Origin: a virus
Length of the DNA: 42,797 bases
Strand: one strand, 5' to 3'
IMG/VR virus record: IMGVR_UViG_3300043438_000288
Span: 1 to 42,797 of that record
Of this stretch, positions 3,685-26,239 are shown one piece after another (positions within the stretch are counted from its first letter, which is position 1; each line of letters begins with the position of its first letter). The position numbers were made by a program, and so were the translations under genes. Below the pieces are notes generated by a model. It was not told the origin of the DNA. It made no database searches and was given only the letters and a program-made list of their open reading frames with translations.

Positions 3685-4773
3685 ATGGCTTTCCCAAAGA
3701 ATGGCGTTGTAGAGGCAGGAAAAATTGTGCCCTCCGCTTTCGGCTTACTCGCCGTAATCAAGCCTGAAAATTCGGCTGACGAAGACCGCTGGGTTCGTGG
3801 CTTCTCTCAAGAATATGAGACCACTGTAAACAATTTGAAAAACTGGGATGACTCGGACACCGTTAGTTACACTCTTGTAAACAATGCAACCGTAAATTAT
3901 TACGATGAAATTAAACCTTTCTTTGTTGAAATTGATGAAGTCCGCTCTACTCTAGGTTTTCTAGGAATTGACAGAATTAGTCGCCTAAAGCGTCAACTTG
4001 AGGGAGTAACTCAAAAGGCTATAGAGCGTGAACTTTGGAATGGCGATATTCGCATCGCTGATGGACACGACAACAAGGCTTTAGTTGGAGGGGCAACTGT
4101 TGTAAATTCTGGAGTCGCACTTTCTGCTAAGCGTGCGCTAGCAGTATTAGAGCATTCAATTGCTGAAGTTTCTCATGGCGGGGAGCAGGGAATTATCCAC
4201 GCTACTCGCGATGTAGTTGCTCTTTTATCTAGCAACTCAAATATGCTTTTTCACGAAAAAGATAAAGACCACCTACAAACTATGGGCGGAACTCCAGTTA
4301 TTGTGGGCTCTGGCTACAGTGGCGATGGACCTCGTATCGCTGTTGCTACAGCAGCCATTTCGACAAACACTACTCTAACTCTAAACACTTCTTCTGCTCA
4401 CTACTTGGTTACTGGAGATACAGTCAGATTTGCAGTAGATGGCGCAAATGTTGACCAAAGTTCTGCCTCAGCAACAGTAACTAAGGTAGACGCAGATACT
4501 GTAACAATAACTATTGCCAGTGCCACTAACGCTACTTCCGAGGCAGTTACTGGATACATTCAGCAGTTGGGTACAGAATCTACAAAATGGGTTTACGCAA
4601 CTGGCAATGTCAAGGTCTACCTTGGTGATGTCGATATCGTAAATGACAACCTAGGTCAAGGTTATGACATAGCAGGAAACAAAAATGAAATCAGACTAAA
4701 GGCAATCCGACCTGCTGCGGTTTACTTTGGCACATCCATCCACCTCGCTGTTCGGGTCGACCTAACAGTTTAA
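3685..4773 (+). CDS. Second capsid protein, probably pentamer subunit, with inserted beta-module
   Basis: This 362-residue protein follows the major capsid gene and is preceded by AAGGA. Some actinophage groups carry a hexamer capsid protein of about 600 residues followed by a pentamer protein of about 360 residues; length and position match that pattern. The first 210 residues look like a compact capsid-type fold (VRGFSQEYETTVNNLKNWD, FLGIDRISRLKRQLEG, LFHEKDKDHLQTMGGTPVIV). Residues about 221-281 form a Thr/Ser/Val-rich insertion with the pattern SSAHYLVTGDTVRF, a beta-module that recurs in the tail proteins of this window. The C-terminus (IRLKAIRPAAVYFGTSIHLA) returns to the capsid-like domain. 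The pentamer role is inferred from gene order and family precedent; a decoration protein is the alternative. Confidence 0.55.
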   Translation: MAFPKNGVVEAGKIVPSAFGLLAVIKPENSADEDRWVRGFSQEYETTVNNLKNWDDSDTVSYTLVNNATVNYYDEIKPFFVEIDEVRSTLGFLGIDRISRLKRQLEGVTQKAIERELWNGDIRIADGHDNKALVGGATVVNSGVALSAKRALAVLEHSIAEVSHGGEQGIIHATRDVVALLSSNSNMLFHEKDKDHLQTMGGTPVIVGSGYSGDGPRIAVATAAISTNTTLTLNTSSAHYLVTGDTVRFAVDGANVDQSSASATVTKVDADTVTITIASATNATSEAVTGYIQQLGTESTKWVYATGNVKVYLGDVDIVNDNLGQGYDIAGNKNEIRLKAIRPAAVYFGTSIHLAVRVDLTV

Positions 4774-4792
4774 CAATAAGGAGAACAGCCCA

Positions 4793-5923
4793 ATGGCTAC
4801 TCAAGAATATGCTGCTAGCATCCAAGGCGTGTCAATCCGTGTCACACGCCTAGACGCTGCTGGCAACCTGCTAAACGGGGCTGGTGACTCTTACACTACT
4901 TCAGCCTTCCTACGCGTTTCGTTTACCCCAGAGTATGAGGAAGGCGATGAAATCACCGAGAAGTCAGCAAACGGCACGGTTTGTGTGACATACAAGGCTC
5001 CAGACACACTGAAGCGTATCACTATGGAACTCGCAATCTGTGAGCCAGATGCTGAACTCTCACAACTTCTATCTGGCGGTCTACTTCTTCGTAAGAATGT
5101 AGATGGCGTCGTAAAGAGCGTTGGTTGGGCAGCACCTGGTGTGGGCGATGACCCAGCAGGTCACGGTGTCGCTATCGAGGCTTGGTCTCACGCAGTCAAG
5201 GATGGTAAGCGTGCTTCTGTATTGCCTTACTTCCACTGGGTCTTCCCATATGCCAAGTTGCGTCAATCAGGTGACCGTGTAATTGAAAACGGTATGCTAG
5301 CCACAACCTTTGAGGGTTATGGTCTTGGAAACCGCAACTTCGAGTCAGGCGTAGATGGTCGCTGGGAGTTCCCAGTTGCCGCAGAGCGCCCTTACTCGTA
5401 TGCTCGCGCATCTTGGGCACCTGTGGGTCTACAAGGCTTCTACACTTGGACTGACAACTCTGGAGACGCATCGTTCTTTACCGCTGGTGGAAACATTCAG
5501 GGTCAGACCACTCCTTACATCACCTCTGTTACAGCAGTCAACACTACAGCCACTGTTATCTTTAGCGCGGCTCACAACATTGCTACTAGCGACAAGGTAT
5601 ATGTATCTGGCACTGGCGAGCCTTTCAACACCATCACTTCTGGTGTTGCTGCTACCAATGTCAACTCGACTGCAATCTCGTACACCATCGCAAATGTTGG
5701 TGGTACCACTCTTACAGCCACTCTTGACAAGTTCAGCCGTGTGTCACTTGTTGACTCTGCTACTGAGGGTGACCCTAGGTACCTTGCAGTCACTACCACA
5801 GCAATCGACACCAAGTACTCTAATGCTAGCGGAGATGTTGAGGCTGGTTACAATGTTCCTGGTAACTTGGACTACAACGCTGACTCGAATGTCGACTTTA
5901 TCATCAAGTCAAACGAAGACTAA
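4793..5923 (+). CDS. Major tail tube protein A
   Basis: This 376-residue protein is one of two adjacent paralogues. The start is preceded by AAGGAG. Residues 1-226 (MATQEYAASIQGVSIRVTRL to FYTWTD) are about 96% identical to the next gene and form the presumed tube domain. Residues about 242-302 carry a beta-module (FSAAHNIATSDKVYVSGTGE), and the last 70 residues (TATLDKFSRV to FIIKSNED) are again shared with the paralogue. Major tail proteins with a C-terminal Ig-like or beta-module decoration are common in siphoviruses. The assignment rests on position between capsid and tape measure, size and probable high expression; no tube-specific catalytic motif exists to confirm it. Confidence 0.65.
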   Translation: MATQEYAASIQGVSIRVTRLDAAGNLLNGAGDSYTTSAFLRVSFTPEYEEGDEITEKSANGTVCVTYKAPDTLKRITMELAICEPDAELSQLLSGGLLLRKNVDGVVKSVGWAAPGVGDDPAGHGVAIEAWSHAVKDGKRASVLPYFHWVFPYAKLRQSGDRVIENGMLATTFEGYGLGNRNFESGVDGRWEFPVAAERPYSYARASWAPVGLQGFYTWTDNSGDASFFTAGGNIQGQTTPYITSVTAVNTTATVIFSAAHNIATSDKVYVSGTGEPFNTITSGVAATNVNSTAISYTIANVGGTTLTATLDKFSRVSLVDSATEGDPRYLAVTTTAIDTKYSNASGDVEAGYNVPGNLDYNADSNVDFIIKSNED

Positions 5924-5938
5924 GGAGAACTGTTCTAA

Positions 5939-7498
5939 ATGGCAACTCAGGAATACGCAGCCAGCATTCAAGGTGTGTCTATTCGCGTAACGCGACTAGA
6001 CGCCGCTGGCAACTTGCTAAATGGTCCAGGTGACTCGTACACCACATCTGCGTTTATGCGTGTGTCTTTCACACCAGAATACGAAGAGGGCGACGAGATT
6101 ACCGAAAAGAGTGCCAATGGAACTGTATGTGTAACTTACAAGGCTCCTGACACTCTCAAGAGAATCACTATGGAGTTGGCTATCTGTGAACCAGACGCTG
6201 AACTTTCTCAGTTGCTCTCTGGCGGTCTCTTGCTTCGCAAGACCGTTGACGGCGTTGTGAAGTCTGTTGGTTGGGCTGCTCCAGGCGTCGGAGACGACCC
6301 TGCTGGAAATGGTGTAGCGATTGAAGCATGGTCGCACGCTGTGAAAGATGGAAAGCGCGCGAGCGTTCTTCCGTACTTCCACTGGGTCTTCCCTTACGCA
6401 AAACTTCGTCAGAGTGGTGACCGCGTTATCGAGAACGGTATGTTGGCTACCACATTTGAGGGCTACGGTCTAGGCAACAAGAACTTCGGTTCTGCTGTTG
6501 ATGGTCGTTGGGAATTCCCTGTAGCCTCTGAGAGACCGTACTCTTACTCAAGAGCATCTTGGGCACCTGTCGGACTTCAAGGATTCTATACTTGGACTGA
6601 CCAGGCTTCTTACCAGTCATTCTTCACTATCGGTGGGATTCAAGGTGCTACCACGATTGCTATAACTGGCATTAGTGGCTACGATAATTACCGCGCTGTG
6701 ACTCTAGGTAGTAGCACTGTTACCTCTGGAATTGCCAATGGAGACAAGGTTTATGTCAACAACTGTGGCGAGCCATTCAACACCAGCACAGTGGGCGAAT
6801 CAGTAACATCGTTGAACTATGTCGCTGGCACCGCTACGGCAAATGTGACAGCATCAAATACCACCATCACTGTTGCTAACACCGCTGGTTATGTTGTTGG
6901 TCAGGACATCTTCCAATTGAGTGGGACTGGGACACTTTCCAACACCACGATTGCCACAGTAGTAAATGCTACTGCTTTCACTGTAACCGCAGCACCAAGC
7001 GCAAGCGGTACTTTGACCTTTGGTCTAGTCGGTATGGGTGCTACTGCGAATGTGGCTGTATCAAATACTACTATTCAAGTGGTCAGCACTGCTGGTCTAG
7101 TTCCTGGTATGACTATTGCCAAACTCGTTGGTGGTGCCTCTCTTGCCAACACTACAATTGCAACTATTGTAAATGCAACAGCATTTACAGTAACTACTGC
7201 TCCTACAGTTCTTGGAAACCTAGCATTTAGCATCAATGGTGGAAACGCTTTCTACTATTCAAACTACCCAACCACTGCCAACTTGTCATCTGCTCTAACA
7301 GCAACCCTAGACAAGTACAGCCGTGTAAACCTAGTTGATAGCATCACCGAGGCTGGCTCTTACACCCCAGTCACCACAACTCAGATTGACACTCAGTATG
7401 CTAACGGTGCTGGTGAAGATACTTACAATGTCCCTGGCGGATTGAACTACAACGCCGATGCAAATGTTGACTTCATTATTAAGTCAAACGAGGACTAA
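5939..7498 (+). CDS. Major tail tube protein B, paralogue with tandem insert
   Basis: This 519-residue protein starts 15 bp after protein A, with TAAGGAG overlapping the preceding stop codon. Its first 220 or so residues differ from A at only about nine positions (for example A30P, L40M, N102T, H123N), yet most codons differ synonymously. The extra length lies in the C-terminal half: two tandem repeats of about 69 residues (nt 6827-7033 and 7037-7243; shared motif SNTTI, NTTIATxVNATAFTVT) are inserted inside the region equivalent to A's beta-module, after the shared motif GEPFNT. The C-terminus NVDFIIKSNED matches A. The two proteins probably co-assemble in, or differentially decorate, the tail tube; which one is the main tube protein cannot be told. 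Confidence 0.65.
   Translation: MATQEYAASIQGVSIRVTRLDAAGNLLNGPGDSYTTSAFMRVSFTPEYEEGDEITEKSANGTVCVTYKAPDTLKRITMELAICEPDAELSQLLSGGLLLRKTVDGVVKSVGWAAPGVGDDPAGNGVAIEAWSHAVKDGKRASVLPYFHWVFPYAKLRQSGDRVIENGMLATTFEGYGLGNKNFGSAVDGRWEFPVASERPYSYSRASWAPVGLQGFYTWTDQASYQSFFTIGGIQGATTIAITGISGYDNYRAVTLGSSTVTSGIANGDKVYVNNCGEPFNTSTVGESVTSLNYVAGTATANVTASNTTITVANTAGYVVGQDIFQLSGTGTLSNTTIATVVNATAFTVTAAPSASGTLTFGLVGMGATANVAVSNTTIQVVSTAGLVPGMTIAKLVGGASLANTTIATIVNATAFTVTTAPTVLGNLAFSINGGNAFYYSNYPTTANLSSALTATLDKYSRVNLVDSITEAGSYTPVTTTQIDTQYANGAGEDTYNVPGGLNYNADANVDFIIKSNED
6827..7243 (+). repeat. Tandem repeat of about 69 codons in tail protein B
   Basis: Two consecutive copies of a Thr/Ala/Val-rich beta-module are seen in the translation, both ending in a version of NTTIATxVNATAFTVTxAP. 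The copies are similar in protein but clearly diverged in DNA, so this is an old duplication. The copies lie at about 6827-7033 and 7037-7243. Confidence 0.75.
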
Positions 7499-7510
7499 TA
7501 GTTAGATAGG

Positions 7511-7554
7511 AAGGCGGCGAGATTGGTTGATTTTCTTCCAATTCTCGTCGCCTT
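7511..7554 (+). terminator. Long hairpin after the tail tube genes
   Basis: The left arm 7511-7526 (AAGGCGGCGAGATTGG) pairs with 7538-7554 over about 16 bp with one G-U and one bulged base. It lies in the 77-bp gap between tail protein B and the adaptor gene. The 3' side is only pyrimidine-rich (ACTTCTTACC), so it may be a weak terminator or a 3'-end stabiliser for the abundant capsid/tail tube mRNA. Confidence 0.6.
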
Positions 7555-7575
7555 ACTTCTTACCTAAGGATAGAT

Positions 7576-8682: not shown

Positions 8683-8720
8683 TTCTACAATAGAAGTAGC
8701 CCATAAATAGAAGGAACAAA

Positions 8721-8936: not shown

Positions 8937-8945
8937 TAGGCAAAA

Positions 8946-10824: not shown

Positions 10825-10839
10825 GGAGGTGAACAATAA

Positions 10840-13800: not shown

Positions 13801-14178
13801 ATCGGGTTCCTAGCAGACACTGTAAACGCTTTGTCTGGTGGTGCTATTGACATTAGGGCGGCCGTTGACCAAGGTCTAATTCCACCTGTGCCTCGCTTTG
13901 TAGTTCCGCAACTTTTCGCTGAGGGTGGTATTGTCTCCCCGTCTGCTGGTGGAACTCTAGGTATTATTGGTGAGGCTGGTAGACCAGAGCGCGTTGAGCC
14001 ACTTGACCCAGACGGACTTTCTAAGAGAGACAAGGCAATGATTGAAATGATGAGTGGCGGTGCTGCTGGCGGAATCAATGTCACCGTAAACGGAACTCCA
14101 GATATGGATGTCAACGCTCTTGCTGCCGAAGTAAGCCGAAGACTTGCTTTCCAAATGCGTAAAGGTGCTGCTATCTAA
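10840..14178 (+). CDS. Tape measure protein
   Basis: This 1,112-residue protein is preceded by a near-perfect Shine-Dalgarno (AAGGAGGTGA). It contains an N-terminal Gly-rich region, a hydrophobic stretch at about 93-145 (Ala/Gly/Val-rich), a coiled coil at about 150-247 (many Glu/Ala/Arg heptads), long amphipathic repeats with regularly spaced Phe/Ile (for example FGKIFGNIFGGFSK), a membrane-like segment at about 744-780, and a long hydrophobic stretch at about 843-937. The C-terminus has the classic tape measure ending (LFAEGGIVSPSAGGTLGI, GEAGRPERVEPL). The family spans the tail lumen and sets tail length; about 1.5 angstrom per residue would give a tail near 165 nm, a rule-of-thumb estimate. 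No lysozyme or peptidase motif was recognised in it. Its stop overlaps the next start (TAATG). Confidence 0.92.
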   Translation: MPVVGEAHIIVRAITTNVAKDIRNGFNGVSGSGGKNAQKAGENLSSKFMRGFNKGSEINFLTGISKGLQEMTPSAQQGYETINQLIVTGYKGTVMASAFAGAIGVIIGALVTLVAAAAGAATSLTAVIGLFISMKAASAVAKFAMNGVGEAVQQATQQQKTQVETLKNLREELQQLKFDAEDAALAEENAAIALEKAREGLARTADLPADSRARREAEIAYKQADLNYRRAKDRSADLNEELKTGAKARAKAASQDPYANLTNTQKGFAKFLVKLQPIFKNLREVVAQGFLPALQNGLTQLITSGTFNDIFNGIKSIGDALGKATKVVFDFFSSAEAGRYLREIFETISQVTKEFGPILSKFFKAFLKILAASSPIVLRLANFISRILGDFNELLDATGDVGLRKFFITAADMAGKFGKIFGNIFGGFSKIVMANFGPGTGGDYLLNWLIEATQGFGTMGKSGGDLKTFFNGVALNAKKMFSGIGSIIEQIVKIGADPNIGAFFEKIKEASPYFSSILKKAGQALPTVATLIVKIVEIIDKLTDDAAIDNFFKTLVAGADVFSNILGNPVVKSIMAFTGQIKAVTLGVGEIGKKAKPVFDFLTQTVTNVTGFFGKAQEVITGTKEAFGTVVTVNAGLRSAVKKTTDSFKAAAKIWPKFSSGVNQARDFTGLLSKQTGAFMKNATEGTRKHLNGNTMLVRGYGRLKLAIETTALRFKLFKIGFLKGFTQMAASQNKSIALFGRMGVAMMAANPILLIIGLIVAAFAVLFTTNEKFRNQIIETFQPALEALKEAFATIMVALQPVILSFKYLMETLFGGSNGGGGPLTKFFVVLAEVISKLVVALAPLIANLISKLMPIVEKLLQILIPIVEIFMTLVSGILEALAPVLIVLADAFGAIVTVIMDLLMPVIDGLMGYLMPLFTFWTQMIQLIAGFFEALFSGDWDKFGKLFRDLGQGIVQSLADMFTGFINLLITLLNMLFKVAMLHPLIGFLADTVNALSGGAIDIRAAVDQGLIPPVPRFVVPQLFAEGGIVSPSAGGTLGIIGEAGRPERVEPLDPDGLSKRDKAMIEMMSGGAAGGINVTVNGTPDMDVNALAAEVSRRLAFQMRKGAAI

Positions 14179-16913
14179 TGGCTACTGTATATAACTTGTT
14201 AACTAATCCGTCTTTTATTGCCAACACGACTGGTTGGAGTGGGCTGGCAATCAGCGGTGGCACTAACCCAACCATTAGCACGGACACTAGCGACCCTTTA
14301 TATGGTACTGGGTTCTCAGCAAAAGTAACCTTTGCCGCTACTAGCCCTTTTAGCGGTCTAATCACAGACGACTCTTACAGAGTTGCTGTAAACGGTGGTC
14401 AAAAATACACTCTTTCGGCTTATGTAAAAGTTCCTCTTGGACAGGCTTCATCTGAATTTAAGTTGAGGGCTTATTTCTACACTGCCTCTACTGGTGGCTC
14501 TAACACAACTTTAGACTCAGCGCCTACAAAGATTACTTCCCACGACGGTTGGGTCAGACTTGTATTCACCTTTGAGGTGCCAACCTCTGCTTCTTACACG
14601 CACTTTAGGTCTTATATTTTTAGAAGCACCACCACTGACCCAGGCGAGAACTATAACTTCTTGGTAGATGCTGTTCAGTTACAAACTGGCACTGAAGCCA
14701 CATCTCTTATTTATGACCAAGGTCAGAAGAACAAACTTGTAGATAAGGCTCTTTCCCCTGTCTACATCGACCACCTAACTGGTATGAAACTCAAGGCGGA
14801 CATCCGTCTTGGCGATTTTGTATTCAACCGCATCGACGAATACGGCGTGGTTTGGGTCGTTGACAATGTTCAAGGCTGGTGGTCATTGCCAGACATTGAA
14901 ATGCAGGACCTACCTCGTGGGTGGGGCGATGGTTCCTACACAACCTACGGCAGATACAGTGCTAGACAGATTACTATTACTGGAAGTTTTCTCGTGCAAG
15001 ACACAGACACGCAACTTGAAGATGCTAGAGGTCGCCTAATCAACGCCATCAACTTGGTGAAAAAAGACGCTTGGCTAATTCTCGATGAAGAAATTCCTAA
15101 GGCTCTAAAGGTAAGAATAAGTGGTACTCCCGAAATATCCACTACAAATGCCAGAGGTAGGACAGACTTCTCTATTGGTCTAGTTTCCGCTGACCCAATC
15201 AAATACAAGTGGGCAGACGCTAGAGATGACGGCTACGCTTTAGCGACAGCCAACTCCAACGCTGAAGTAGTTACCATCAGAAATGAGGGAAACACTCCAG
15301 TAAGCGCCGTTTTTGAAATTGTTGGACCAACCACTGGACCTGTGTCTATCTTTAATAGAACATCCGAGCAACTAATAGATGTAATTTACAAGTTGGATAA
15401 GTACAAATCTTTCACTGTATCTGGCTCTCAGGTTTCAGATGGCAACCTAGTATTCACTACATCCGATACCCACGGATTCACCGTTGGAGACGCCGTAGAT
15501 GTTGTAGGTGTTATTGACACTTTTGATATTGCATCTGTAGTTTGTTCTGTGGCCAACTCAATTGACATTGTCACTTCAATTAAGCACAATTTCTCTGTTG
15601 GTCAAGAGATACAGTTGACTGGTGTTGCTGCTTTATCTGGCACTACTTATGATGCTGTTACTAATGGTGTTTACTATATTACAAATGTATACGCATCTAG
15701 TGGCGACTATTACAGATTTAGAGCCACTAAAGTGGGTCTCACCTTGTCGGTCGCTGGTGCTCAAACCGTGACCGACGCAAGTGGGGAGAATTCCACCAAT
15801 ACTAGGTTTAGTGTTTTCGCTAACTTGTCAACCATCTCCTACAATGGCGACAGCAACATAGGTTTAGTAAATACCGATGATACGCACGGATTTATCGTTG
15901 GAGACCAAATTGTCTTGTCAAACACCAGCGACGCTTATAACGGAACATATGTGGTCGTAGGTACCCCGTCTACTACATCATTTGAAGTAAACATCTTTGG
16001 GTCCCAGAAAATAGTTGAAATTGATAACTACTCTTCTAGCCTCTCGCTGGGAACCATTACTTTTTCTTCTGGTGCTCTTGATGCTCAAGCAGATGATTCT
16101 GTGACTATTAGCGGTGTAAATGAAAATTTTAATGGAACTTATAAAGTAGTATCCGCCAACTCTACGGCAGTAACTTTCAACAAAACTTTTCCTAATGTAA
16201 CTACTAGCAGTACAACAGATTACGGCACCATCCAGATTTCTTCTCTAAGCACCAGAAGTTCTGTGGCATATGCTGACGGTAGGGCATACTACGGAAATAT
16301 TTATAATGGTTTCTATAATGTCGACTATGTCCCTACAAACACTTCAAAAGTGTTTAAGGTAATTAGACCTACTTTCTATGGCAATGTTTCAAATGCCACT
16401 CAGCAGAGTTATTACGGCTCAATAACCAATCCAGCCGTTGCCAGAGTGTACGGAGAAACTCTAAGCATCGATTCATACACTAGGGAAATAGCCCTAAATG
16501 GTGAACTTGGCGGTTACCGTTCAAAACTTGACACTGTTGTTGATTGGATTGAACTACAGCCAGGCGACAATGAAATCATTTTTGAGGATTTGAACAAGAG
16601 GTCAGTGGCAAATGTGCAGTACACGCACTCAACCACCACGGCAACTATAGTAACTAAGTCTGACCACAGTTTTGTTGTCGGCTCTATGGTGAAACTTATT
16701 GGTCTAAATACTATTGCTGGTGGTTCCAATGTATTTGCTAATGCTTCTATAGCAGAAGTACTTACGGTTCCAGACACTAAGTCATTTACCTTTACTCCTG
16801 ACAATGTCAACGGAGCATCAAACATCTCCACCACGGCGGTAACTTCTGGCTACATCTACGAGATTAGCCCTGCTTATGTAAACATCTACTACCGCTCAGG
16901 CTGGATTGGCTAG
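14178..16913 (+). CDS. Distal tail-like minor tail protein with N-terminal carbohydrate-binding-like domain
   Basis: This 911-residue protein directly follows the tape measure gene with a one-base overlap. Residues 1-185 look like a jelly-roll carbohydrate-binding domain (LLTNPSFIANTTGWSG, GGQKYTLSAYVKV, WVRLVFTFEVPTSASYTHF, YNFLVDAVQLQ). Residues about 190-360 resemble distal tail (Dit-type) proteins: SPVYIDHLTGMKL, VQGWWSLPDIEMQDLPRGW, GRYSARQITITGSFL, and a strand-rich section ending in GLVSADPIKYKW. Residues about 410-700 and 800-885 contain several beta-modules with the pattern T-x-x-HGF-x-VGD-x-(V/I) followed by NGTY-x-V. It is probably a ring at the tail tip that carries host-binding modules. 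Dit-like is supported by position and motif resemblance; sugar binding is inferred. Confidence 0.65.
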   Translation: MATVYNLLTNPSFIANTTGWSGLAISGGTNPTISTDTSDPLYGTGFSAKVTFAATSPFSGLITDDSYRVAVNGGQKYTLSAYVKVPLGQASSEFKLRAYFYTASTGGSNTTLDSAPTKITSHDGWVRLVFTFEVPTSASYTHFRSYIFRSTTTDPGENYNFLVDAVQLQTGTEATSLIYDQGQKNKLVDKALSPVYIDHLTGMKLKADIRLGDFVFNRIDEYGVVWVVDNVQGWWSLPDIEMQDLPRGWGDGSYTTYGRYSARQITITGSFLVQDTDTQLEDARGRLINAINLVKKDAWLILDEEIPKALKVRISGTPEISTTNARGRTDFSIGLVSADPIKYKWADARDDGYALATANSNAEVVTIRNEGNTPVSAVFEIVGPTTGPVSIFNRTSEQLIDVIYKLDKYKSFTVSGSQVSDGNLVFTTSDTHGFTVGDAVDVVGVIDTFDIASVVCSVANSIDIVTSIKHNFSVGQEIQLTGVAALSGTTYDAVTNGVYYITNVYASSGDYYRFRATKVGLTLSVAGAQTVTDASGENSTNTRFSVFANLSTISYNGDSNIGLVNTDDTHGFIVGDQIVLSNTSDAYNGTYVVVGTPSTTSFEVNIFGSQKIVEIDNYSSSLSLGTITFSSGALDAQADDSVTISGVNENFNGTYKVVSANSTAVTFNKTFPNVTTSSTTDYGTIQISSLSTRSSVAYADGRAYYGNIYNGFYNVDYVPTNTSKVFKVIRPTFYGNVSNATQQSYYGSITNPAVARVYGETLSIDSYTREIALNGELGGYRSKLDTVVDWIELQPGDNEIIFEDLNKRSVANVQYTHSTTTATIVTKSDHSFVVGSMVKLIGLNTIAGGSNVFANASIAEVLTVPDTKSFTFTPDNVNGASNISTTAVTSGYIYEISPAYVNIYYRSGWIG

Positions 16914-16953: not shown

Positions 16954-19900
16954 ATGGCAGAGAACGAAGTTACATATAGGTATTTCATTACCAACATTGT
17001 TACTAATGAAGTAATCGCTGAAATTCCCCTAACTGGGGTCTCCTACGACCGAGCCCTAAAAGATGCTGGTTCTTTTTCTGGAACTATTTCTCTAACCCCC
17101 GAGATAGAGGGTATTGATGTCTATGAGTCCACTATGCCGGGCAAAAACGCAATCTATGTTTTACGAAACGGCGAGTGTGTTTGGGGCGGACCAATTTGGT
17201 CTAGAAGTTACGATGTAGTTGGTAAAACCATAAGCATTAATGCTAACGAGTTCACAAGTTACTACCAGCACAGAAAAATTTGGAAAACTTGGAACCTAAC
17301 TCACAGCAACACTTTAGTATATGTAGACCCGAAAAAAAGTTCCCAACTGATTGTCGAGTTAAACCCTGACACTAAAGAAACCATCACCATTGAAGAGGGC
17401 GTGGCGGTCGAGTTATCTTTTACTGATAAAAAGGGCTACAACCTAAATGGTCATTTTAGAGTAAATAGGGACTTTGTAAACGCCACTAAAATTACGGTCG
17501 ATAAAGAGGCTCTGCAATGGAATGTGCCTAATGTTTCTCACACTTTTGCCACGGTGGGTAGCAGAATAAATGTGACAAAAAGGCAGGTAACTGCTGGCAG
17601 TAAAGAAGTAATTATTACCACAGACGATGCCCACTTGTTGGCTGTTGGGGATATGGTAAATATCAAAAATCTTGAATCCAAAGTGGATTTTGAGGGTTAT
17701 AAGACATACAAGACACTGCCTACCGAGTACCCGCTCGCTGCTTTCGACTCCACATCTATAAAATACATAGTCGGGGAGGTGGCTGAAGGCAGTTACACCG
17801 TTAATGTCCCTAGTACTAGGGGGATTAGCGAAGGTGCCAACATTACTCAGATTCCGTATGTTGGCGGAAAAATTACGGGAGCATCGCAACCAAAACTTAA
17901 TCCTGAAGGTGGTATTCCGACTGACGGATTTAGGACAACCGTAACCAAGGTAATAAACGCCACCAGTTTTAAATTTAGTGCTTACGCTGCTGGCACTGAT
18001 GTGAACAAGCCAGCCTATAGAGACGGAAAAGTATACCTAAAAATTCAAAATAAGAGTAGCGGATACAACGCTGGTACTAGGGAATACACTATGCAACCAG
18101 CAAACAACACTTGGAAGGGGAAAGTAGGCAAGGGCGGTTACATAAAGACGAATGGCGTACAAAAATATGACGGTAGCGGATTAGACCCAATCTTTGGCGA
18201 TTTACCTACTAATAATGTTTCTTTCAGCAATGTAAACGCCGTTCAGGGCGAAAAAGTCCTAACAATTTCTTCCACCACTGGGCTACAACAGGGTTTTGTT
18301 GTTGAGCAAGTCCCGCAGGAGGGAGTAGCAACTGTGCTTAGCGACTGCACAATTGAAGAAGTTATTGGGAACAATAAAATTAGAGTCAGTTCGGCACCGA
18401 CTTACGATGCGACTATAAAAATTGTAGTGAAGTCGCCAAGGTATCACAAGATAACTGGACTTACGACCGCTAAAATGCCTCAGTCTATGGGCGAGTATTA
18501 CTTTGAAAAAGGCTCTACGGATTTTGTCGGCGTGCCAGCATTTAAGTTTTACTACCCTAAGACAATTGTTAAGGGGGCAGGATATCAGTATCCGATATCA
18601 AACGCGACTTTTAATATAGTTTTAGAAGAGCAACACGAGTTTCCGTACACAAGAAGTAGGACTGCCGCTTGTGCCAATGGTGACCAGCCCGTAATAAAAG
18701 TTATTGACCGTAAAACTTTTGTTGTGAATGGAGATTGTGAGCCAGCAAAATATGACGACATCAACACCAATCAGCCCACGACAACCATTGCTTGGGATGG
18801 TAAGTATCAAGCAACTATGTACACTCACACTGACACTTATGAGCAGGTTCGCTATTTCTTGGGTAAAGTTCACGAAGACTTCGTTACCGTAAATGCCAAT
18901 AACCCGTTCCTAGGAAACTTAGAAAAGTATCAAATTAGAACTGCTAAGTACGACCCAGCGACCGACTTGGCTACAATTACTACTGGATTCAAGCAGTCAG
19001 TATATAGTAAAAAAATATACTGCGATTACAACAGTGGCGACCCTAGAATTGTCGCAAGAGTCTCTCTCTACGACCCATACACTCAGTTTGACACCACTAA
19101 TGATGTCGGCGAACTGATAAAAATTACTGGCTCTGACCAATCTATAAATGGCACTTTTTACATAAAGACCATAGAGCCAGTGACTAAATCTTATGTTGAG
19201 TACATTTTGAACTCAAAAGAGCAAGACTTGATTGGTTATTCTCTTTCTACAGTCAGCGCAAACGGCACCTACATAACTTTCACCACATCTTCTGCTCACG
19301 GCATCAGGGCAGGTAATTTAGTTACAGTGGGCGGTCTCAGTGTGACGGCGCTCAATGTTGACAATGCTCTAGTAGTCGATACTCCAACATCTACAACTAT
19401 TAGAGTTGCGTCTACCGTGGCAAACGGAACTTCAGACACTACTCCGCTGTCTAGTATTTTTACATCTGACCGCCTAGTCAACAACACAGTGCTACCGCTA
19501 AACTCTTCTATCGCCACCTTTGGGGCGCACGACTTGTCAGTTGGCAATAACTTTGAGTTGACTGGACTAACTATTGAAAATTATGACGGTGTTTGGTCAG
19601 TAAATAGTGTTATAGATGAAGTTACTTTTACCTATAAGCCTAGTTTTGAAAGACTAAATATTACTGATTTTAGGCTGGATTACACCACGCAAAACGGCTA
19701 CATGGTTACAGTAAAAATCCATAAGAAGCCAAACTTCCAAAAGTACTCCTACATCGCGGGTGAAACAAAAATCACGGTAACCGAGTTAGACGGTTCGGGC
19801 TATGACTATAACGGAACATTTGTCCTACAAAGTTTTAAGCCTACGGATGATACAGAAGATTACTACTACTTTAGTTACAAACTAAGTGGCGCAAACGGTA

Positions 19901-21594
19901 CTCGAAAAACTCACCCTTGGAGAAAAGTAGACTATGAAATTAGAAAAACGGGCTCTTCTAAGACAATTAGCGCCGCTTCCTATGTCAGACAACTCATAGA
20001 TGACGATAACAATGCTAAAACCGCTAAAAGCCCTAGCGGTAAGGGAGTAACTACTTACACAACAAGCGCTTCCCACTCGCTAAACGCTGGTGATTACGCG
20101 GTTGTCTCTAACATCGGTGGCGAGTTTACTCAAAAAACCGCCAATGCCAATGCTTTCTCCGAATACATAGTCCAAGTGTCTACAGTACCTACTGGCACCA
20201 CTTTCACTGTTAGCAACGAAACTGACGCAACTAATAGAAGCCTGTGGCAACTAGCAGGACTCGCAGGTACTAAAAAAGATGTTGGAAAGGCTAACACTAG
20301 CATCACCCCCACTGGTGCTACCGTTATTTCTTACGACCCGTCTCCGTCTAGACCTAGTTCAAGTTACCCGTCTCTAAAAATTGATGACTTGCCTGATGTA
20401 ACCGCAAAAACTGAACTTACTTCTCTTGTTACTGGAAAAGCGTTCAATGCTAAAACTAAGACCGTCTACTTACAGTTATCCAGCAACCAAGGATTTGTAG
20501 TAGGTCAAAATGTGATTGTAGAAGATGTAGATGACTACAAAAACGACATTTTTGACGGTACTTACAAAATAACTGGTTTTGAAAAAGTTGGAAACAAGTT
20601 CCAACTTAGGTATCAGTCGACAAATAAGTCGTATAAGAAAAACATAGGCGAGTTTGATTCTAAAAATAAATTAGAAGATTATTCACCACTGCTCGCTGCT
20701 TCTCCAGGAAAAGTTGTTGTAGACGCTGCCGTTTATGTTGGCAGTTATGGCTCATTTACTGGGAACTCAGACATTGACTTAGAGTTCTCGACATATGAAA
20801 ACTCAGGCAACTACCAAAGAGTCCCGTCTTACAGAGGGCACGAACTAAAAACTGTAGGCGATTACTTATCTGAGTACTCTGACAAGTACATAGTAAAACC
20901 AAACAGCACCAAAGTAGTTAGAAATGTATACGGCTTTGAGTACCGAATCGATTGTGTATACGACAAGGTAAATGGTTCTTTTAGAAGAATCTTCAAATTC
21001 CTGCCGATAAACTACCCGAATCCGCCTATCCACGGAGAGGTATCTCCTCCAAGCCGTTTTGGTGCTGACAAGTTTGTATTTGAGTACCCAGGCAACATCA
21101 GTAGTGTGACATTAGACGAGTCTGCTGAAGAGGCTTCTACTAGGTTCTTTATGGTCGGCAGTGATGGTGGTACTGGAACTAGCGATGCTTCTAAGTCATA
21201 TATTGGCGTTGCTCATAAGGAATTGTTGGCTAATAGTTGGCCACTACTAGACTCCACTGAATCTGACGATAAATTAGATTTTTTGAGAGATATTTCTGAA
21301 AATGCATACAGATACCTAAACGAAACTAAACCGCCATCTGGAGTTTTCCAAATTGGTGTTGTCGGAAATCTAGACCCGATAGTCAATACATACCAGCCCG
21401 GCGACTGGTGCAGTATTATAGTTAATGACAAGTTTGTTCAAGACAGACTAGCAAGCGACTTAGAGCCTAGAAATGATGTCATTGTGAGAAAGATTCTTTC
21501 GTATAGCGTTGGTGTTCCAGACGCTCCGTCAACGCCTGAATCTGTGTCTCTAAGTCTTATTACCGAGTGGGATGTGGATAACCGTGGCCAGTAA
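16954..21594 (+). CDS. Gp37-like tail hub protein split by an array of beta-modules
   Basis: This 1,546-residue protein has the two ends of an actinophage Gp37-like (tail hub/baseplate) protein. Residues 1-118 (VSYDRALKDAGSFSGTISL, KNAIYVLRNGECVWGGPIW, ISINANEFTSYYQHRKIW) match the N-terminal hub part. Residues about 1275-1546 (SYRGHELKTVGDYLSEYSDK, YEFRID-like YGFEYRIDCVYD, FEYPGNISSVTLDESAEEAS, YQPGDWCSIIVND) match the C-terminal hub part. Between them lies roughly 1,150 residues of Thr/Ser/Asn-rich beta-modules, many with an HG/HS-x(5-8)-G-(D/N)-x-V pattern (for example SSAHGIRAGNLVTVGG, ASHSLNAGDYAVVSN). Family members are usually near 500-600 residues, so the insertion roughly triples the length. 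It overlaps the next gene by about 11-23 bp. Confidence 0.7.
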   Translation: MAENEVTYRYFITNIVTNEVIAEIPLTGVSYDRALKDAGSFSGTISLTPEIEGIDVYESTMPGKNAIYVLRNGECVWGGPIWSRSYDVVGKTISINANEFTSYYQHRKIWKTWNLTHSNTLVYVDPKKSSQLIVELNPDTKETITIEEGVAVELSFTDKKGYNLNGHFRVNRDFVNATKITVDKEALQWNVPNVSHTFATVGSRINVTKRQVTAGSKEVIITTDDAHLLAVGDMVNIKNLESKVDFEGYKTYKTLPTEYPLAAFDSTSIKYIVGEVAEGSYTVNVPSTRGISEGANITQIPYVGGKITGASQPKLNPEGGIPTDGFRTTVTKVINATSFKFSAYAAGTDVNKPAYRDGKVYLKIQNKSSGYNAGTREYTMQPANNTWKGKVGKGGYIKTNGVQKYDGSGLDPIFGDLPTNNVSFSNVNAVQGEKVLTISSTTGLQQGFVVEQVPQEGVATVLSDCTIEEVIGNNKIRVSSAPTYDATIKIVVKSPRYHKITGLTTAKMPQSMGEYYFEKGSTDFVGVPAFKFYYPKTIVKGAGYQYPISNATFNIVLEEQHEFPYTRSRTAACANGDQPVIKVIDRKTFVVNGDCEPAKYDDINTNQPTTTIAWDGKYQATMYTHTDTYEQVRYFLGKVHEDFVTVNANNPFLGNLEKYQIRTAKYDPATDLATITTGFKQSVYSKKIYCDYNSGDPRIVARVSLYDPYTQFDTTNDVGELIKITGSDQSINGTFYIKTIEPVTKSYVEYILNSKEQDLIGYSLSTVSANGTYITFTTSSAHGIRAGNLVTVGGLSVTALNVDNALVVDTPTSTTIRVASTVANGTSDTTPLSSIFTSDRLVNNTVLPLNSSIATFGAHDLSVGNNFELTGLTIENYDGVWSVNSVIDEVTFTYKPSFERLNITDFRLDYTTQNGYMVTVKIHKKPNFQKYSYIAGETKITVTELDGSGYDYNGTFVLQSFKPTDDTEDYYYFSYKLSGANGTRKTHPWRKVDYEIRKTGSSKTISAASYVRQLIDDDNNAKTAKSPSGKGVTTYTTSASHSLNAGDYAVVSNIGGEFTQKTANANAFSEYIVQVSTVPTGTTFTVSNETDATNRSLWQLAGLAGTKKDVGKANTSITPTGATVISYDPSPSRPSSSYPSLKIDDLPDVTAKTELTSLVTGKAFNAKTKTVYLQLSSNQGFVVGQNVIVEDVDDYKNDIFDGTYKITGFEKVGNKFQLRYQSTNKSYKKNIGEFDSKNKLEDYSPLLAASPGKVVVDAAVYVGSYGSFTGNSDIDLEFSTYENSGNYQRVPSYRGHELKTVGDYLSEYSDKYIVKPNSTKVVRNVYGFEYRIDCVYDKVNGSFRRIFKFLPINYPNPPIHGEVSPPSRFGADKFVFEYPGNISSVTLDESAEEASTRFFMVGSDGGTGTSDASKSYIGVAHKELLANSWPLLDSTESDDKLDFLRDISENAYRYLNETKPPSGVFQIGVVGNLDPIVNTYQPGDWCSIIVNDKFVQDRLASDLEPRNDVIVRKILSYSVGVPDAPSTPESVSLSLITEWDVDNRGQ

Positions 21595-24500
21595 TAGAAG
21601 TAGAAAATTTAGGTCGATTACTGGTCGTATATCTGAATTAGATAAGCAAGTCGGTGAGATTAACAGAATCTCTCAGAGCGTCACCGACGGTCTTGGCTTA
21701 GACGCCGTATCTTCAGATGCTATCTTAAGCGGTGCCGTAGGCTCAGATGCTATAGAGACCCAATCTATTACTGCCGATAAAATTGCTCCCAGCGTGTTCC
21801 AAACCGCCTCATCTGGGCTACAAAGAGTGCCAGCACCACTAACAGCGGTAAACTACTGGAACTCGGCAATTTACGGAAACATTACTGCTTTCTCTGAGGC
21901 TTATTTTGCCGATAAAGAGAATAAAAATGTCTCGGTTTCTGCCTTAGGAATCACTTTTAGTCCTGAAAAAAATAGCAATGTAATTGTTAGCACTGCTGAA
22001 CTGCAAAGTGGCGGTCTAGTAATGATTGAGACTAGGATTGCCCACGGCTATGAAATTGGCGACTACATCACAGTAACTAACCTAGGCTCGCCTCTAGACG
22101 GCGAGTGGGTAATTACAGATGTACCAACTGCCACATCTATCTCATACAACATAAACCAGTTTGAAGAGGCAATTACAAACTTAGATTTTTCCGCTGGTGC
22201 TTACATAGATGTTGGAGAAAACGAGACAGACGGTTCTGGGTATAGACAGTCCATCATACAAAAATCTTTTATTGGTGGTGTAGCCACGCTAACTCTCTTT
22301 GACCCACTTGATAGTAATCCTGACACCTCATCTAGCCACGGATATACGGCTGGTTATGTTATAGATGTTGTCGGACTGGGCTCGCCTTATGACGGCACTC
22401 AAGTAATAACTGCTATACCCGATGGAGAACCTAACTCCTTACAGTATCGACCAGACGAAGGAACTATTCCTGAGTTCATTCCTAGGATAGTTTTAGACTC
22501 TGGCTGGGGAGACGGTGAGTCAATTGTTTACTCAACTGCTCGGGATGCTACTGCTACAGACATATTTCACGGTCTATCCGTAAATCAATATGTGGAGATA
22601 ACTGGATTTACAACTAACACTGGATACAACATCACAGGTCAGGTAAGCGGTGTCTTTGGTTCTGGCACCAGTTTTACTCTGCCCTCTACGGTTACTCCAA
22701 CTGTTGATGCCCCTGAAACTGGTGGAACTTATTACTGCTACAAGGGAGAGGTGAAAGCCGAGGCTGACGCTGTCTTGTTCCTTACTGGTGTCAATCCAGT
22801 CCCCGCCAGTAGAAATGTAGTAATAAGTTGGATAGCAGACAAACCTATAGATTTTAGGATTGTTGTGTGGGACTCCGAGCAACCAGACTCCCCCAAATTC
22901 TTGGAGGTGGATGCTGACACGACTGAGAGTATTTCTACAATTTTTGGTCTGAACACCTACATATGGGAAGTCCCTGAGGGCATATTCCAATACGCTGTCT
23001 ACGCTGAAGTGCTGTCTGGTAAGGAAGATGTCTTACTGGAGGAGTGTTATGTGTTTGAGTCTGTAGGTGACTCATCCAAGATGATAGAAAAAATCACTGG
23101 TGCTTATGTAGATGCTGTAGCAAATAACGCCAATAAAGTGACCTTTTTTACTGCCGCATCTCACTCTCACGAACTAGATGACGCTGTAAAAATTAGCGGA
23201 GTAGACATTATTTCTAACGCCGCTAGTCAAGAGTTCCGAGTAGAGTCTTTCTCAGACGATAAAAGAAGTTTTACTGTCTCGGTGCCAGTGGTAGACATTC
23301 AAGTTGCTACGGTTAGCGGTAGCAATGTCGTTACAACGCTAGGAACTTTGGACCCAGTATCCGAGACTGTAAAAAATCAAAACATCTCTGGACTAATTTA
23401 TGTCGGACAGCCTTACACTTCTAGCAACACTACCGCTCTGCCAAACGGCACTGTCACCGAGATACTTAAGAGCGAGTTATATAGCAACACTGCTACTAGC
23501 ATTGGTGCCACTCTCGTTGCTGGGAACACTACAGTCACCCTATCTAGTGGAAATACCGAAGGAATTACCGCTGGCCAGCGAGTAACAAAAATAAGTGGAA
23601 CTGGAGTCTTTGGTAATTCTGGAACAGTTTTTGTTGCTTCTGTACCTAATTCAACTGCCTTTATTGTCGATACTGCTCACGCTACCTCTGGGGCTGTGGT
23701 TTTCAACACAGCAATCACTTCTTTCAATCACGACTCTTTCTCTGTGGCTAATAACAGTGGTGCTACAAACTCTTCTGTAGTTCTATCTTTCTACTTACCG
23801 CAGACTGGTTCTACTCCTGCTAAAACTGGACTAATAGCGACACTAACTGCTGGCTCTAACGCTGTGACGCTAACTACAGGAAATACGGACACTAATTTTT
23901 CTGTAGGTCAGTTGCTGACTAAAACATCTGGCACTGGAGCATTTGGCAATACTGGTGCGGTTTATGTGACAAGTATTACTAGCAATACAGTGTTCACTGT
24001 AGATGCCAACCACGAAACATCTGGCTCTATAACTTTTGGGACCACGGCTCAGAACGCTGCCATAGCACTAAAAGGTTCTTCCATTGGTGGGCATAAAAAA
24101 AATCAGTCTGCCATCATCAGTCCTAGTGGGTTGGCTATCACATCTCTATCTGGTCAGGCTGTGAATCTTACTGACGACAGCACCGACAACTATGTTGCGG
24201 TGTACAACGCTAATTCTGTGGCAGTTGCTGAAATTTCAAATACTGGAACTGGGACATTTACAGGGATTATTGCTGGTCCAATAGAAGCCACAACTGTAGG
24301 CACAACTTTGCAACCAGTCGAAAGTATTACTAGCGATAATGTAATTTCTAGTTCTGCGACTATTCAAAATTTGACAGCCAATACTCTTAGTGCCACCACT
24401 CTTAGTGCCAATACAGACATCCTCATATCTAACACAAATACCTATGTAATTGGCAGTTTTTCTAATGCCACATACAATAACAACACTGCCTACACTGGCT

Positions 24501-26239
24501 CTTACCTAGACAGATTGGCTAGAGGAGTTATTTACCACTCCTACTGGGATATTCCAACTACTAACATCCCTAGCGGAATTATGTATTACGGACTTGCTAA
24601 CGGAACATTTAACCTTGAGAGTGGCAGAGCGTATCAAATGTTTGTTGGGGCTGGTGGTCTAAGACTTACCCCTAACCAAAATGTGGCTATGGAGTTGTTG
24701 CTCAGCCCTGCCCCAATCAAGGTTACTGACACTAATGAGTTTGGTCGTCTGTCATTTGTGCTACCCACTACTGGTGGCACTAACCAATACTTCAGGGATA
24801 TGATTGGCTACTTCCAAAGTGTTCCTGCCACTGGTTCTACTTTTGCTAGCGGGGTGACCACAAACCTGACTAGCGCGACAATTAGCAGTTGGTCTAAAGG
24901 CACTGGTAGCAGTACAGTAACAGTCACCCTCTCTAACGCTACTCCTCTAACTAACTACTTAAAAACTAATGACTATGTTTCTATTAGCAATGTTGTCCCA
25001 GCAATTTCTGGAGAGAGCGCCCTATACAACGGCATTTTTCAAATAACTAAAGTCAACAACTCGGCGTTTACATATGTACACGGCGGTGCTACAACTCCTA
25101 GCGCAAGCAATAGTGCTGGAAATGTTGTCCTAGTGGAGCCTCAATTGCTAGACACTGCTGCTACTTTTTCTAACACTTCAGGAGCCACTTCTACCGCAAA
25201 TACTATTTCCTTTGCAATAAGAAACTACTTTGTCCCCGGTCAAAGAGTAAGCGTTACTGGATTCTCCGCCCCTAACACTGCTTGGAATGTTACTGATGTC
25301 TTTGTTACTAGCGCAAATGCCACCAGTTTTACTGTATCTTCTAATGCTATTGCTGGCGTATGTACATCTCCTTGTGTAACTGCCACTGTCACTTGGACAA
25401 ATAATCAACTTGAAGTAAACAAGACTGTCTTACCAGCGCAGACCACAATTTATTGGATTTTGAGACTAAGACACGGCTCTAACACAAATTCGACTTCCAC
25501 CATTGTTACAACTGGACACCCTGCTGGAATCTTCTCTATCAGTGATATGGGTCAGGCTAAAACACTCACTTACTCAGCCCCTACTCAAGACTGGACAACT
25601 GGATTCCCACCTGCCCTCAAGTCTGGTGGTGCCACTTCCCCCGCGACAAACACCACTACCAGCACTACCACTACTTTTACCACTACTCTAACCGTCACAT
25701 CTGCGGACAGTGCTTACTACGATAACTACGGTAAGGGCGATGGCGGGACTTCAGACCCGTACACCAACGAGCAGAGCCTCTATCAAGGAAATCCTGGAAC
25801 GGCTTCTGGAACAAAGAAGTCGGCTGTACTGTTTACCGCATATTCTTATCCTGGTGCCCACGCAAATAACAGGGTAATTACAAAGGTAGAGGTTTATCTA
25901 AGAAATAGACACTCATACAACTCTGGAGGTCTAACAACAAGAATCGGTCTCTCTACTGCCACATCTTTGGGCTCTTCTATACCTACTACTGGAGTGACCG
26001 CTGGTCCAACCCCTACTAGCACCACTTTCACTAAGGGTCAAGGTAAGTGGGTGACTCTAGGTAGCGGATTCCACACATACGCTAACGCGACTTCATTCAG
26101 GACTATTCTCATCAGCCTCACTGACCAAAGTCCAATTACCTATGACTCAACTATTAGCAACTACGGATATTTTGATGGAGACCTACAATCTGACCCGCCA
26201 AAACTTCGTATTACCTATACCTACGATGTAACAACATAA
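21572..26239 (+). CDS. Very large minor tail protein / probable receptor-binding fibre
   Basis: This 1,555-residue protein could start at ATG 21572 or at the in-frame GTG 21584; neither has a strong Shine-Dalgarno and both overlap the upstream stop. The N-terminus (RISELDKQVGEINRISQSV, then SDAI/GSDAI/TADKIAPSVF) is typical of fibres that attach to a hub. The middle holds many beta-modules (for example IAHGYEIGDYITVTNLG, SSHGYTAGYVIDVVG) and a tandem pair at nt 23501-23709 and 23831-24042. The last 190 residues or so, from YDNYGKGDGGTSDPY, look like a separate beta-sandwich tip (FTAYSYPGAHANNRVITKVE) and are the likeliest receptor-binding part. Function is inferred from position, size and composition. 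Confidence 0.6.
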   Translation: MWITVASNRSRKFRSITGRISELDKQVGEINRISQSVTDGLGLDAVSSDAILSGAVGSDAIETQSITADKIAPSVFQTASSGLQRVPAPLTAVNYWNSAIYGNITAFSEAYFADKENKNVSVSALGITFSPEKNSNVIVSTAELQSGGLVMIETRIAHGYEIGDYITVTNLGSPLDGEWVITDVPTATSISYNINQFEEAITNLDFSAGAYIDVGENETDGSGYRQSIIQKSFIGGVATLTLFDPLDSNPDTSSSHGYTAGYVIDVVGLGSPYDGTQVITAIPDGEPNSLQYRPDEGTIPEFIPRIVLDSGWGDGESIVYSTARDATATDIFHGLSVNQYVEITGFTTNTGYNITGQVSGVFGSGTSFTLPSTVTPTVDAPETGGTYYCYKGEVKAEADAVLFLTGVNPVPASRNVVISWIADKPIDFRIVVWDSEQPDSPKFLEVDADTTESISTIFGLNTYIWEVPEGIFQYAVYAEVLSGKEDVLLEECYVFESVGDSSKMIEKITGAYVDAVANNANKVTFFTAASHSHELDDAVKISGVDIISNAASQEFRVESFSDDKRSFTVSVPVVDIQVATVSGSNVVTTLGTLDPVSETVKNQNISGLIYVGQPYTSSNTTALPNGTVTEILKSELYSNTATSIGATLVAGNTTVTLSSGNTEGITAGQRVTKISGTGVFGNSGTVFVASVPNSTAFIVDTAHATSGAVVFNTAITSFNHDSFSVANNSGATNSSVVLSFYLPQTGSTPAKTGLIATLTAGSNAVTLTTGNTDTNFSVGQLLTKTSGTGAFGNTGAVYVTSITSNTVFTVDANHETSGSITFGTTAQNAAIALKGSSIGGHKKNQSAIISPSGLAITSLSGQAVNLTDDSTDNYVAVYNANSVAVAEISNTGTGTFTGIIAGPIEATTVGTTLQPVESITSDNVISSSATIQNLTANTLSATTLSANTDILISNTNTYVIGSFSNATYNNNTAYTGSYLDRLARGVIYHSYWDIPTTNIPSGIMYYGLANGTFNLESGRAYQMFVGAGGLRLTPNQNVAMELLLSPAPIKVTDTNEFGRLSFVLPTTGGTNQYFRDMIGYFQSVPATGSTFASGVTTNLTSATISSWSKGTGSSTVTVTLSNATPLTNYLKTNDYVSISNVVPAISGESALYNGIFQITKVNNSAFTYVHGGATTPSASNSAGNVVLVEPQLLDTAATFSNTSGATSTANTISFAIRNYFVPGQRVSVTGFSAPNTAWNVTDVFVTSANATSFTVSSNAIAGVCTSPCVTATVTWTNNQLEVNKTVLPAQTTIYWILRLRHGSNTNSTSTIVTTGHPAGIFSISDMGQAKTLTYSAPTQDWTTGFPPALKSGGATSPATNTTTSTTTTFTTTLTVTSADSAYYDNYGKGDGGTSDPYTNEQSLYQGNPGTASGTKKSAVLFTAYSYPGAHANNRVITKVEVYLRNRHSYNSGGLTTRIGLSTATSLGSSIPTTGVTAGPTPTSTTFTKGQGKWVTLGSGFHTYANATSFRTILISLTDQSPITYDSTISNYGYFDGDLQSDPPKLRITYTYDVTT
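23501..24042 (+). repeat. Two related 70-residue modules in the fibre gene
   Basis: The module at about 23501-23709 and the one at about 23831-24042 share the order LVAGNTTVTLSSGNT / LTAGSNAVTLTTGNT, SGTGVFGNSGTVFV / SGTGAFGNTGAVYV and ATSGAVVF / ETSGSITF. They are separated by about 40 residues and are diverged in DNA. Confidence 0.65.

Follow-up and report, generated by a model that had tools for sequence, protein, structure and literature searches.

Ig-like domains of phage structural proteins are promiscuous beta domains found on surface virion proteins, to which they are mostly appended. In the coat proteins of P22, CUS-3 and Sf6, a six-stranded beta-barrel, the I-domain, is inserted in an HK97-fold capsid protein; the available text on P22 ascribes to a domain of this kind roles in folding, assembly and size control rather than adhesion (PMC5701804). 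The 936 lactococcal siphophages carry modules on the neck, tube and Dit in varied combinations, and in GFP-fusion assays the CBM decorations that siphophages bear on neck and tube bound the host, as described in the available text of PMC6669499.

We analyzed a 42,797-nucleotide stretch of DNA, hereafter the window, from an uncultured phage (IMG/VR record IMGVR_UViG_3300043438_000288, positions 1 to 42,797). All features described below lie on the + strand and are given in window positions. Like the P22-type I-domain, the module found here is a six-stranded beta-barrel, in this case predicted, inserted in an HK97-fold capsid protein. At ca. 70 residues, however, it is about 50 shorter than the P22 domain (ca. 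123 aa), which has a D-loop and an S-loop with intercapsomer contacts; it also lacks the stretch ahead of the barrel, and, unlike the P22-type domain, it is present in some close relatives and absent from others. The modules are as promiscuous as Ig-like domains but are inserted in loops, and no Ig-like family led their matches. The likeness to the 936 phages is one of description, and the available text of PMC6669499 describes no capsid insertion, unlike the situation here.

The initial annotation had proposed that one FCCH-like module, marked by the pattern T(S/T)xxHG, spread through six consecutive structural genes. Across the 27 window proteins that we searched, this literal motif occurs only three times, always in tip proteins and never in the capsid or tubes; we replaced it with profiles. 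An HMM seeded with the tube modules of Pumpernickel, Cece and Big4, without any window sequence, was iterated over 3,735 ORFs. This produced 13 window copies of the module (module A) at i-E<1e-4, spread over exactly the six proteins named: one in the capsid-type protein, one in each of two tail tubes, and four, four and two in the three tip proteins, with no copy in the remaining window ORFs of at least 60 aa. These six genes do not form an uninterrupted row: between them lie the adaptor gene, the tape measure gene and three small genes, none with a copy. The strongest reversed-ORF decoy scored 0.35, and the profile largely survives leave-class-out tests. When capsid-type proteins were removed, the window capsid copy was still found at 7e-4 (top decoy 0.29), and the same capsid-free profile gave 37 matches below 1e-3 among 111 homologous ORFs. 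Removal of the tip proteins left window tip copies recoverable at 1.6e-9 and 1.7e-8 (decoy 5.4). The tube-free profile returned 85 tube matches below 1e-3 (decoy 1.9), with window tube 1 reaching only 0.016 and tube 2 absent among the matches listed. One module family is common to the capsid-type, tube and tip proteins. Scans of whole window proteins with Pfam and NCBIfam matched no module family. Tube 2 and the last tip protein each have two copies of a second, related type (module B). Carriers of the family are all proteins that should lie at the virion surface: none of 85 major capsid or 18 tape measure proteins has it.

The capsid copy lies in the second capsid-type protein (362 aa; 3685..4773; phrog_779, 3.7e-18), which is predicted to adopt the HK97 fold: its AF2 model (pLDDT 84.6) gave VIA Z scores of 13.6 (242 residues) to a P. 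acnes phage capsid and 13.4 to HK97. The module spans aa 217-294 in the model (4333..4566; i-E 2.2e-14; profile match aa 220-292), rather than the aa 221-281 originally assigned, and has six strands, at 217-226, 230-235, 246-253, 257-268, 272-276 and 283-294. After truncated and short sequences were removed from 105 distinct capsid-type ORFs, 95 homologues remained. In 29 of these the ca. 70-residue module is an internal, clean insertion; the other 66 have a linker of 10-15 residues at the same site.

The two tail tubes, both assigned to phrog_792 by family match and alignment, share a core that is 95.5% identical and a diverged end. Tube 1 (376 aa; 4793..5923) carries module A at aa 243-310 (5519..5722; i-E 4e-14). 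In tube 2 (519 aa; 5939..7498), module A appears to be split. Its first part, at ca. aa 225-297 (6611..6829; profile match aa 254-311, i-E 5.2e-9), is FCCH-like in the model, and its closing part, at ca. aa 433-470 (7235..7348), is placed from the structural match range of 225-466 and the tube alignment. Between them lie two type-B modules, at aa 298-363 (6830..7027; i-E 2e-30, although it seeded its own profile) and aa 367-432 (7037..7234; likewise a seed of its own profile). From the tube alignment, the tube-2 model and the structural match range, the first of these is apparently nested within module A. The tube-2 model is poor overall (pLDDT 56.1), and we used only the module region, where pLDDT is 74-89.

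The tip proteins hold most of the copies, all located by HMM. The Dit-like protein (911 aa; 14178..16913; SPP1_Dit C-terminal domain 1.9e-6; phrog_5577 1.4e-18) has module A at aa 416-464 (15423..15569), 556-608 (15843..16001), 618-682 (16029..16223) and 814-891 (16617..16850). The Tal-like minor tail protein (1546 aa; 16954..21594; phrog_1885 4.9e-28) has it at aa 211-273 (17584..17772), 765-830 (19246..19443), 1025-1092 (20026..20229) and 1165-1217 (20446..20604), along with a weak candidate at aa 849-895 (19498..19638; i-E 0.01). The third minor tail protein (1555 aa; 21572..26239) matched no Pfam, PHROGs or NCBIfam family at the limits used. It carries module A at aa 139-208 (21986..22195) and, in part, at aa 252-285 (22325..22426), a weak candidate at aa 1113-1179 (24908..25108; i-E 0.0038), and two type-B modules that seeded their own profile, at aa 645-713 (23504..23710) and 755-824 (23834..24043).

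By structure and profile comparison, the module is linked to the FCCH domain of E1 enzymes, to endosialidase barrels and to the I-domain of the P22 coat. E1 enzymes fill the first five places among the structural matches of the tube-2 module region (Z 6.5-7.1). The match to UBA1 residues 215-295 (77 aligned, rmsd 2.8) has a Z of 7.1, which is within the range that common folds reach, and the E1 residues matched are presumably the FCCH domain. Among 53 modules hand-picked from 113 thinned ones for alignment, Pfam E1_FCCH (PF16190) was the commonest family match (17/53 at E<=1, best 1.3e-4). These matches support the FCCH-like label, with the difference that the module sits in a viral virion, and not in an enzyme such as human UBA1. 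The window capsid module matched E1_FCCH at E 0.12 and 12.9 bits, under the gathering cut-off of 29.5; in 12 whole window proteins the family gave no match at E<=1. The endosialidase barrel (PF12195) matched 9/53 modules at E<=1, best 1.9e-4, and is not among the three Pfam matches of the window capsid module; its solved structure, PDB 4hiz, was the top sequence match among solved structures (2e-4). That barrel belongs to a tailspike enzyme, whereas the modules here occur in many copies in structural proteins.

For the I-domain, scans of viral contigs with the P22 and CUS-3 coats gave near-copies only, so diverse coats were drawn from named phages. From the 158 phage records that the P22 coat matched, eight were taken by match and combined with P22, CUS-3 and one viral contig. 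In hhalign, the module aligned to this profile with Prob 94.6 over 51 columns, scoring 43.2 where the highest of 40 shuffles reached 12.3, and in the reciprocal HMM search 39 of the top 40 I-domain matches fell in modules, which make up 3% of residues. Capsid modules alone reached only Prob 41.7. Flank profiles of the capsid slot and the P22 slot aligned at the right offset, but with Prob 0.5, which is not significant. The link to the P22 coat I-domain came unexpectedly. No title or abstract in the literature searched connects it with FCCH-like tail modules, a search whose coverage is incomplete and which leaves novelty unproven; the same literature yielded no use of the term "major capsid pentamer".

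The capsid slot has changed repeatedly. The tree of capsid-type homologues requires at least eight module gains or losses, and the grouping of module-bearing capsid proteins as one clade was rejected (p-AU 1.2e-134). Between two phages, L057 and L062, the capsid module DNA is 96% identical in genes that are 70% identical, and the raised identity is limited to ca. +660 to +920 of the gene, which indicates a recent cassette transfer. Exchange thus runs between phages, slot by slot. The capsid modules of three further phages (L099, L104 and L155) stand outside the main capsid cluster in the module tree and are 50-61% identical to their nearest tube and adaptor modules.

We favor, with a probability of about 0.55, an explanation in which ca. 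70-residue beta-barrel cassettes, kin of the FCCH domain of E1 enzymes, the barrel of endosialidases and the I-domain of the P22 coat, are swapped slot by slot in outward virion loops and serve mainly in adhesion. Loops expected to face out would hold the cassettes in the tail tube, in a second capsid protein of HK97 fold and, in some relatives, in the head-tail adaptor; the tail tip would bear several of them, and each insertion point would be a slot. The allele of the capsid slot, either empty or one of several diverged modules, would be gained, lost and replaced again and again, at least once through recombination of the cassette alone between phages. Family, insertion, repeated gain and loss, and one recent transfer are all seen by computation; that the barrels point outward is our inference. 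By analogy with the decoration modules of other siphophages, their likeliest main job would be low-affinity, many-copy adhesion to host-envelope or extracellular polymers, for which weak sugar binding, as first suggested, is plausible.

The barrels might instead be chiefly structural, the capsid module helping subunits fold and bracing capsomers as in P22 and the tube module stiffening ring contacts. We consider this unlikely, although it draws on the profile link to the I-domain and on Foldseek, which ranks the I-domain-bearing Sf6 and CUS-3 coats first for the capsid-type protein (7e-8 to 7e-7), ahead of HK97 chains (ca. 4e-4 to 1e-3). The module's near-universal presence in tubes (110/116) also fits a structural role. 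Its absence from 66/95 capsid homologues, some of them 88-92% identical in the remaining protein, shows that it is not required for folding or assembly in general, and tip proteins carry many copies at varied places. Variation by segment recombination at conserved flanks, with the module a passenger of little function, would explain why the DNA flanking the slot is conserved across the 11 aligned sequences and why L105 and L172 are 92% identical in the right flank and 72% in the left. We regard it as improbable, since the highest identity between L057 and L062 covers the cassette only, and since the module's dN is well under its dS in each of three pairs (0.069 vs 1.26, 0.199 vs 2.02 and 0.221 vs 1.19), a sign that the module is under selection.

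The remaining alternatives concern how the copies came to be alike. Duplication inside this phage, giving one self-made coat, is suggested by the presence of the family in six proteins of one genome, and the initial annotation had leaned toward such a spread. We give it very little credence, as it is already contradicted by the module tree (191 modules, reduced to 185 by length and 134 at 80% identity), on which the 12 window copies need 12 changes, so that none are sisters. The closest relatives of the capsid and tube-1 copies (89% and 85%) occupy the corresponding slot in other phages, and, the twin tubes aside, a search for direct DNA repeats turned up none above 42 nt. Nor is a phage's own tube module preferentially the nearest tube relative of its capsid module (3/32 in the top 5%), leaving an own-genome donor of the capsid module unsupported. 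The window copies are thus not recent duplicates: the single FCCH-like family in three protein classes stands, and its spread within the phage does not. Least probable of all, in our judgment, is convergence, by which Ser/Thr/Gly/Val-rich beta structure would let unrelated domains resemble one another to a loose motif. The literal motif is indeed loose, with its three occurrences, and the Prob of 41.7 for capsid modules alone leans the same way, but decoys at best reach 0.35 where leave-class-out matches reach 1e-14, Prob against the I-domain stayed <1 for column-shuffled profiles as well as for seven control families from the same genomes, and cassette transfer is visible in the DNA.

It is possible, though we would stop just short of betting on it, that the insertion domain of the P22 capsid represents a single capture from a promiscuous family of virion barrels with further members at work in tail tubes, neck and tail tip. 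Among these actinophages, capture would be ongoing: the capsid slot would be a mobile cassette site that different module lineages, including one near tail-tube and adaptor modules, have filled on at least three occasions. Promiscuous beta modules at the phage surface are known, as are insertion domains in capsids, and the literature searched treats them apart; here, one module family plays both roles. The capsid slot reveals a site that tolerates a 70-residue insert, and its change can be observed among phages that are 70-92% alike, which makes the origin of P22-like insertion domains testable with natural module-plus/module-minus pairs.

The structural genes of this virus (GC content of the 42,797-base window, 45.6%) are actinobacteriophage-like, encoding a major capsid protein (phrog_777), a second capsid-type protein (phrog_779), an adaptor (phrog_783), two tail tubes (phrog_792), a tape measure protein and three large tip proteins. 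In its capsid-type protein the window phage is closest, among named records, to Actinomycetia phage DSL-LC01, with Microbacterium and Arthrobacter phages next, and its host is therefore probably an actinobacterium. PMC10611076 describes the DSL-LC01 genome as derived from a lake metagenome assembly and Actinomycetia as its predicted host. At the tail assembly chaperone position, a CCCAAAA slippery site (10405) lies in a two-frame overlap (10378-10432), a sequence arrangement typical of programmed frameshifting. The third tip protein (21572-26239, 1555 aa) had no Pfam, PHROGs or NCBIfam match at the limits used.

A profile HMM for a ~70-residue, predicted FCCH-like beta-barrel (module A) was seeded with tube modules from three other phages and iterated across 3,735 ORFs from the window and related loci. 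At convergence, 13 window copies were detected at i-E < 1e-4, with the best reversed-ORF decoy at 0.35. These lie in the capsid-type protein, both tubes and the three tip proteins, bearing out the initial annotation's proposal that all six carry one module; the same HMM found no window copy elsewhere. When a protein class was excluded from the profile it was generally refound, although without the tube class tube 1 of the window reached no better than 0.016 and tube 2 went unlisted. Tube 2 and the last tip protein each also contain two copies of a second module, type B, which is probably related to module A (profile comparison, Prob 68.4). Both B copies of tube 2 seem to be nested within module A, because an FCCH match covering residues 225-466 encloses them in a structure model of poor overall quality.

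The same annotation had held that the module spread within this phage, which the module phylogeny contradicts: 12 changes are required for 12 window copies. The capsid copy shares 89% identity, and the tube-1 copy 85%, with modules in the corresponding slot of other phages, but identity to any other window copy reaches 50% at most (the twin tube). Across phages, a capsid module's own tube was not favored as its relative, falling in the top 5% in only 3 of 32 cases (median rank 0.23). A cleanly bounded extra stretch sets the window's capsid-type protein apart from its counterparts in DSL-LC01 (64% identity) and four other named phages. Of 95 distinct complete homologues, 29 carry a ~70-residue module; the remaining 66 have 10-15 linker residues instead, and the site is in every case flanked by a conserved GP and a conserved W. 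With the module columns excluded, the homologue tree needs 9 state changes, of which well-supported branches force 8, and the nearest module-plus/minus pairs are 88-92% identical over the rest of the protein. A tree constrained to a single clade of module bearers was rejected (p-AU 1.2e-134). In the module tree the capsid modules occupy three places, and the L099, L104 and L155 modules share 50-61% identity with their closest tube and adaptor modules. Between loci L057 and L062, module DNA is 96% identical, versus 70% for the remaining gene, with high identity confined to about +660 to +920: a recent transfer of the cassette itself.

Of 116 distinct tube ORFs, 110 contain the module (the DSL-LC01 and Atuin tubes lack it). 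Among complete tip proteins it was present in 6 of the 9 that are Dit-like and in all 3 that are Tal-like. Four of 108 adaptors carry it (L157, L178, L184 and L186), inserted within the C-terminal domain; the window adaptor with its C-terminal domain is encoded at 7576-8682. None was found in 85 major capsid or 18 tape measure proteins. This distribution fits putatively outward-facing proteins. DSL-LC01 has modules only in its Dit-like (one) and Tal-like (two) proteins. Pumpernickel (L003 29426-39791) has long arrays in two tip proteins (8 and 9 matches, some short). Two adjacent tube genes occur in 10 contigs, including the window (4793-7498), whereas the other relatives examined have one. 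The window pair has near-identical cores (95.5% protein identity, with saturated synonymous sites; pS 0.835, pN 0.059) and diverged ends, identity dropping to 57% past residue 222. Selection is maintaining both cores as other parts diverge, and we infer that one tail is assembled from two tube proteins bearing different barrels. In L041 (5001-6176), the first tube gene shifts frame in its end, through a frameshift of natural or sequencing origin, giving 392 aa and no module.

The modeled capsid-type protein (pLDDT 84.6; module region about 87-94) matches HK97-fold capsids, aligning with a P. acnes phage capsid (Z 13.6, rmsd 4.5, 242 residues) and HK97 (Z 13.4); in Foldseek, the Sf6 and CUS-3 coats ranked highest (7e-8 to 7e-7), with HK97 chains at about 4e-4 to 1e-3. 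For the tube 2 model, the five best aligned chains were E1 enzymes (Z 6.5-7.1), over residues that we take to be their FCCH domain. Pfam scans matched 17 of 53 modules to E1_FCCH and 9 to End_beta_barrel; two of the 53 matched the P22-like coat family phrog_283. Searched against all PDB sequences, the 53-module profile matched an endosialidase (2e-4), a phage tail protein (4.7e-4), designed double-psi barrels (0.0052), the P22 I-domain (0.024), the CUS-3 coat (0.054) and a tail tube (0.068), and E1 chains more weakly (0.44 and 1.3).

The P22 coat likewise carries a barrel within an HK97-fold protein, as is predicted here: its I-domain, according to PMC5701804, is a Greek key barrel of six strands whose insertion point is the five-stranded sheet of the A-domain. 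An 11-sequence profile of P22-like I-domains matched the module profile with Prob 94.6 (P 6.5e-8, score 43.2), versus a best score of 12.3 among 40 column shuffles and Prob < 1 for seven control families from the same genomes; capsid modules alone reached only Prob 41.7. In the reciprocal search, covering 2,915 ORFs, the top 20 matches of an I-domain HMM, and 39 of its top 40, fell within modules, which make up 3% of residues (best single match 1.4e-4, best decoy 0.75). Four I-domains scanned with Pfam gave no E1_FCCH match. Because the flanking sequences gave no significant alignment, a common insertion slot is only plausible.

The main rival to a binding function is a structural role; for the P22 I-domain, roles in folding, assembly and size are among those suggested in PMC5701804. 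That the module has been gained, lost and exchanged repeatedly at the capsid slot indicates that it is dispensable for assembly there and useful under changing conditions, and dN far below dS indicates that it is kept functional. Our best guess, by analogy with lactococcal siphophage decoration modules, for which PMC6669499 reports host binding in fluorescence assays, is low-affinity polymer binding. With small barrels entering virion-protein loops, the particle would display many copies from head through tail tip, and these may bind host-envelope or extracellular polymers at low affinity.
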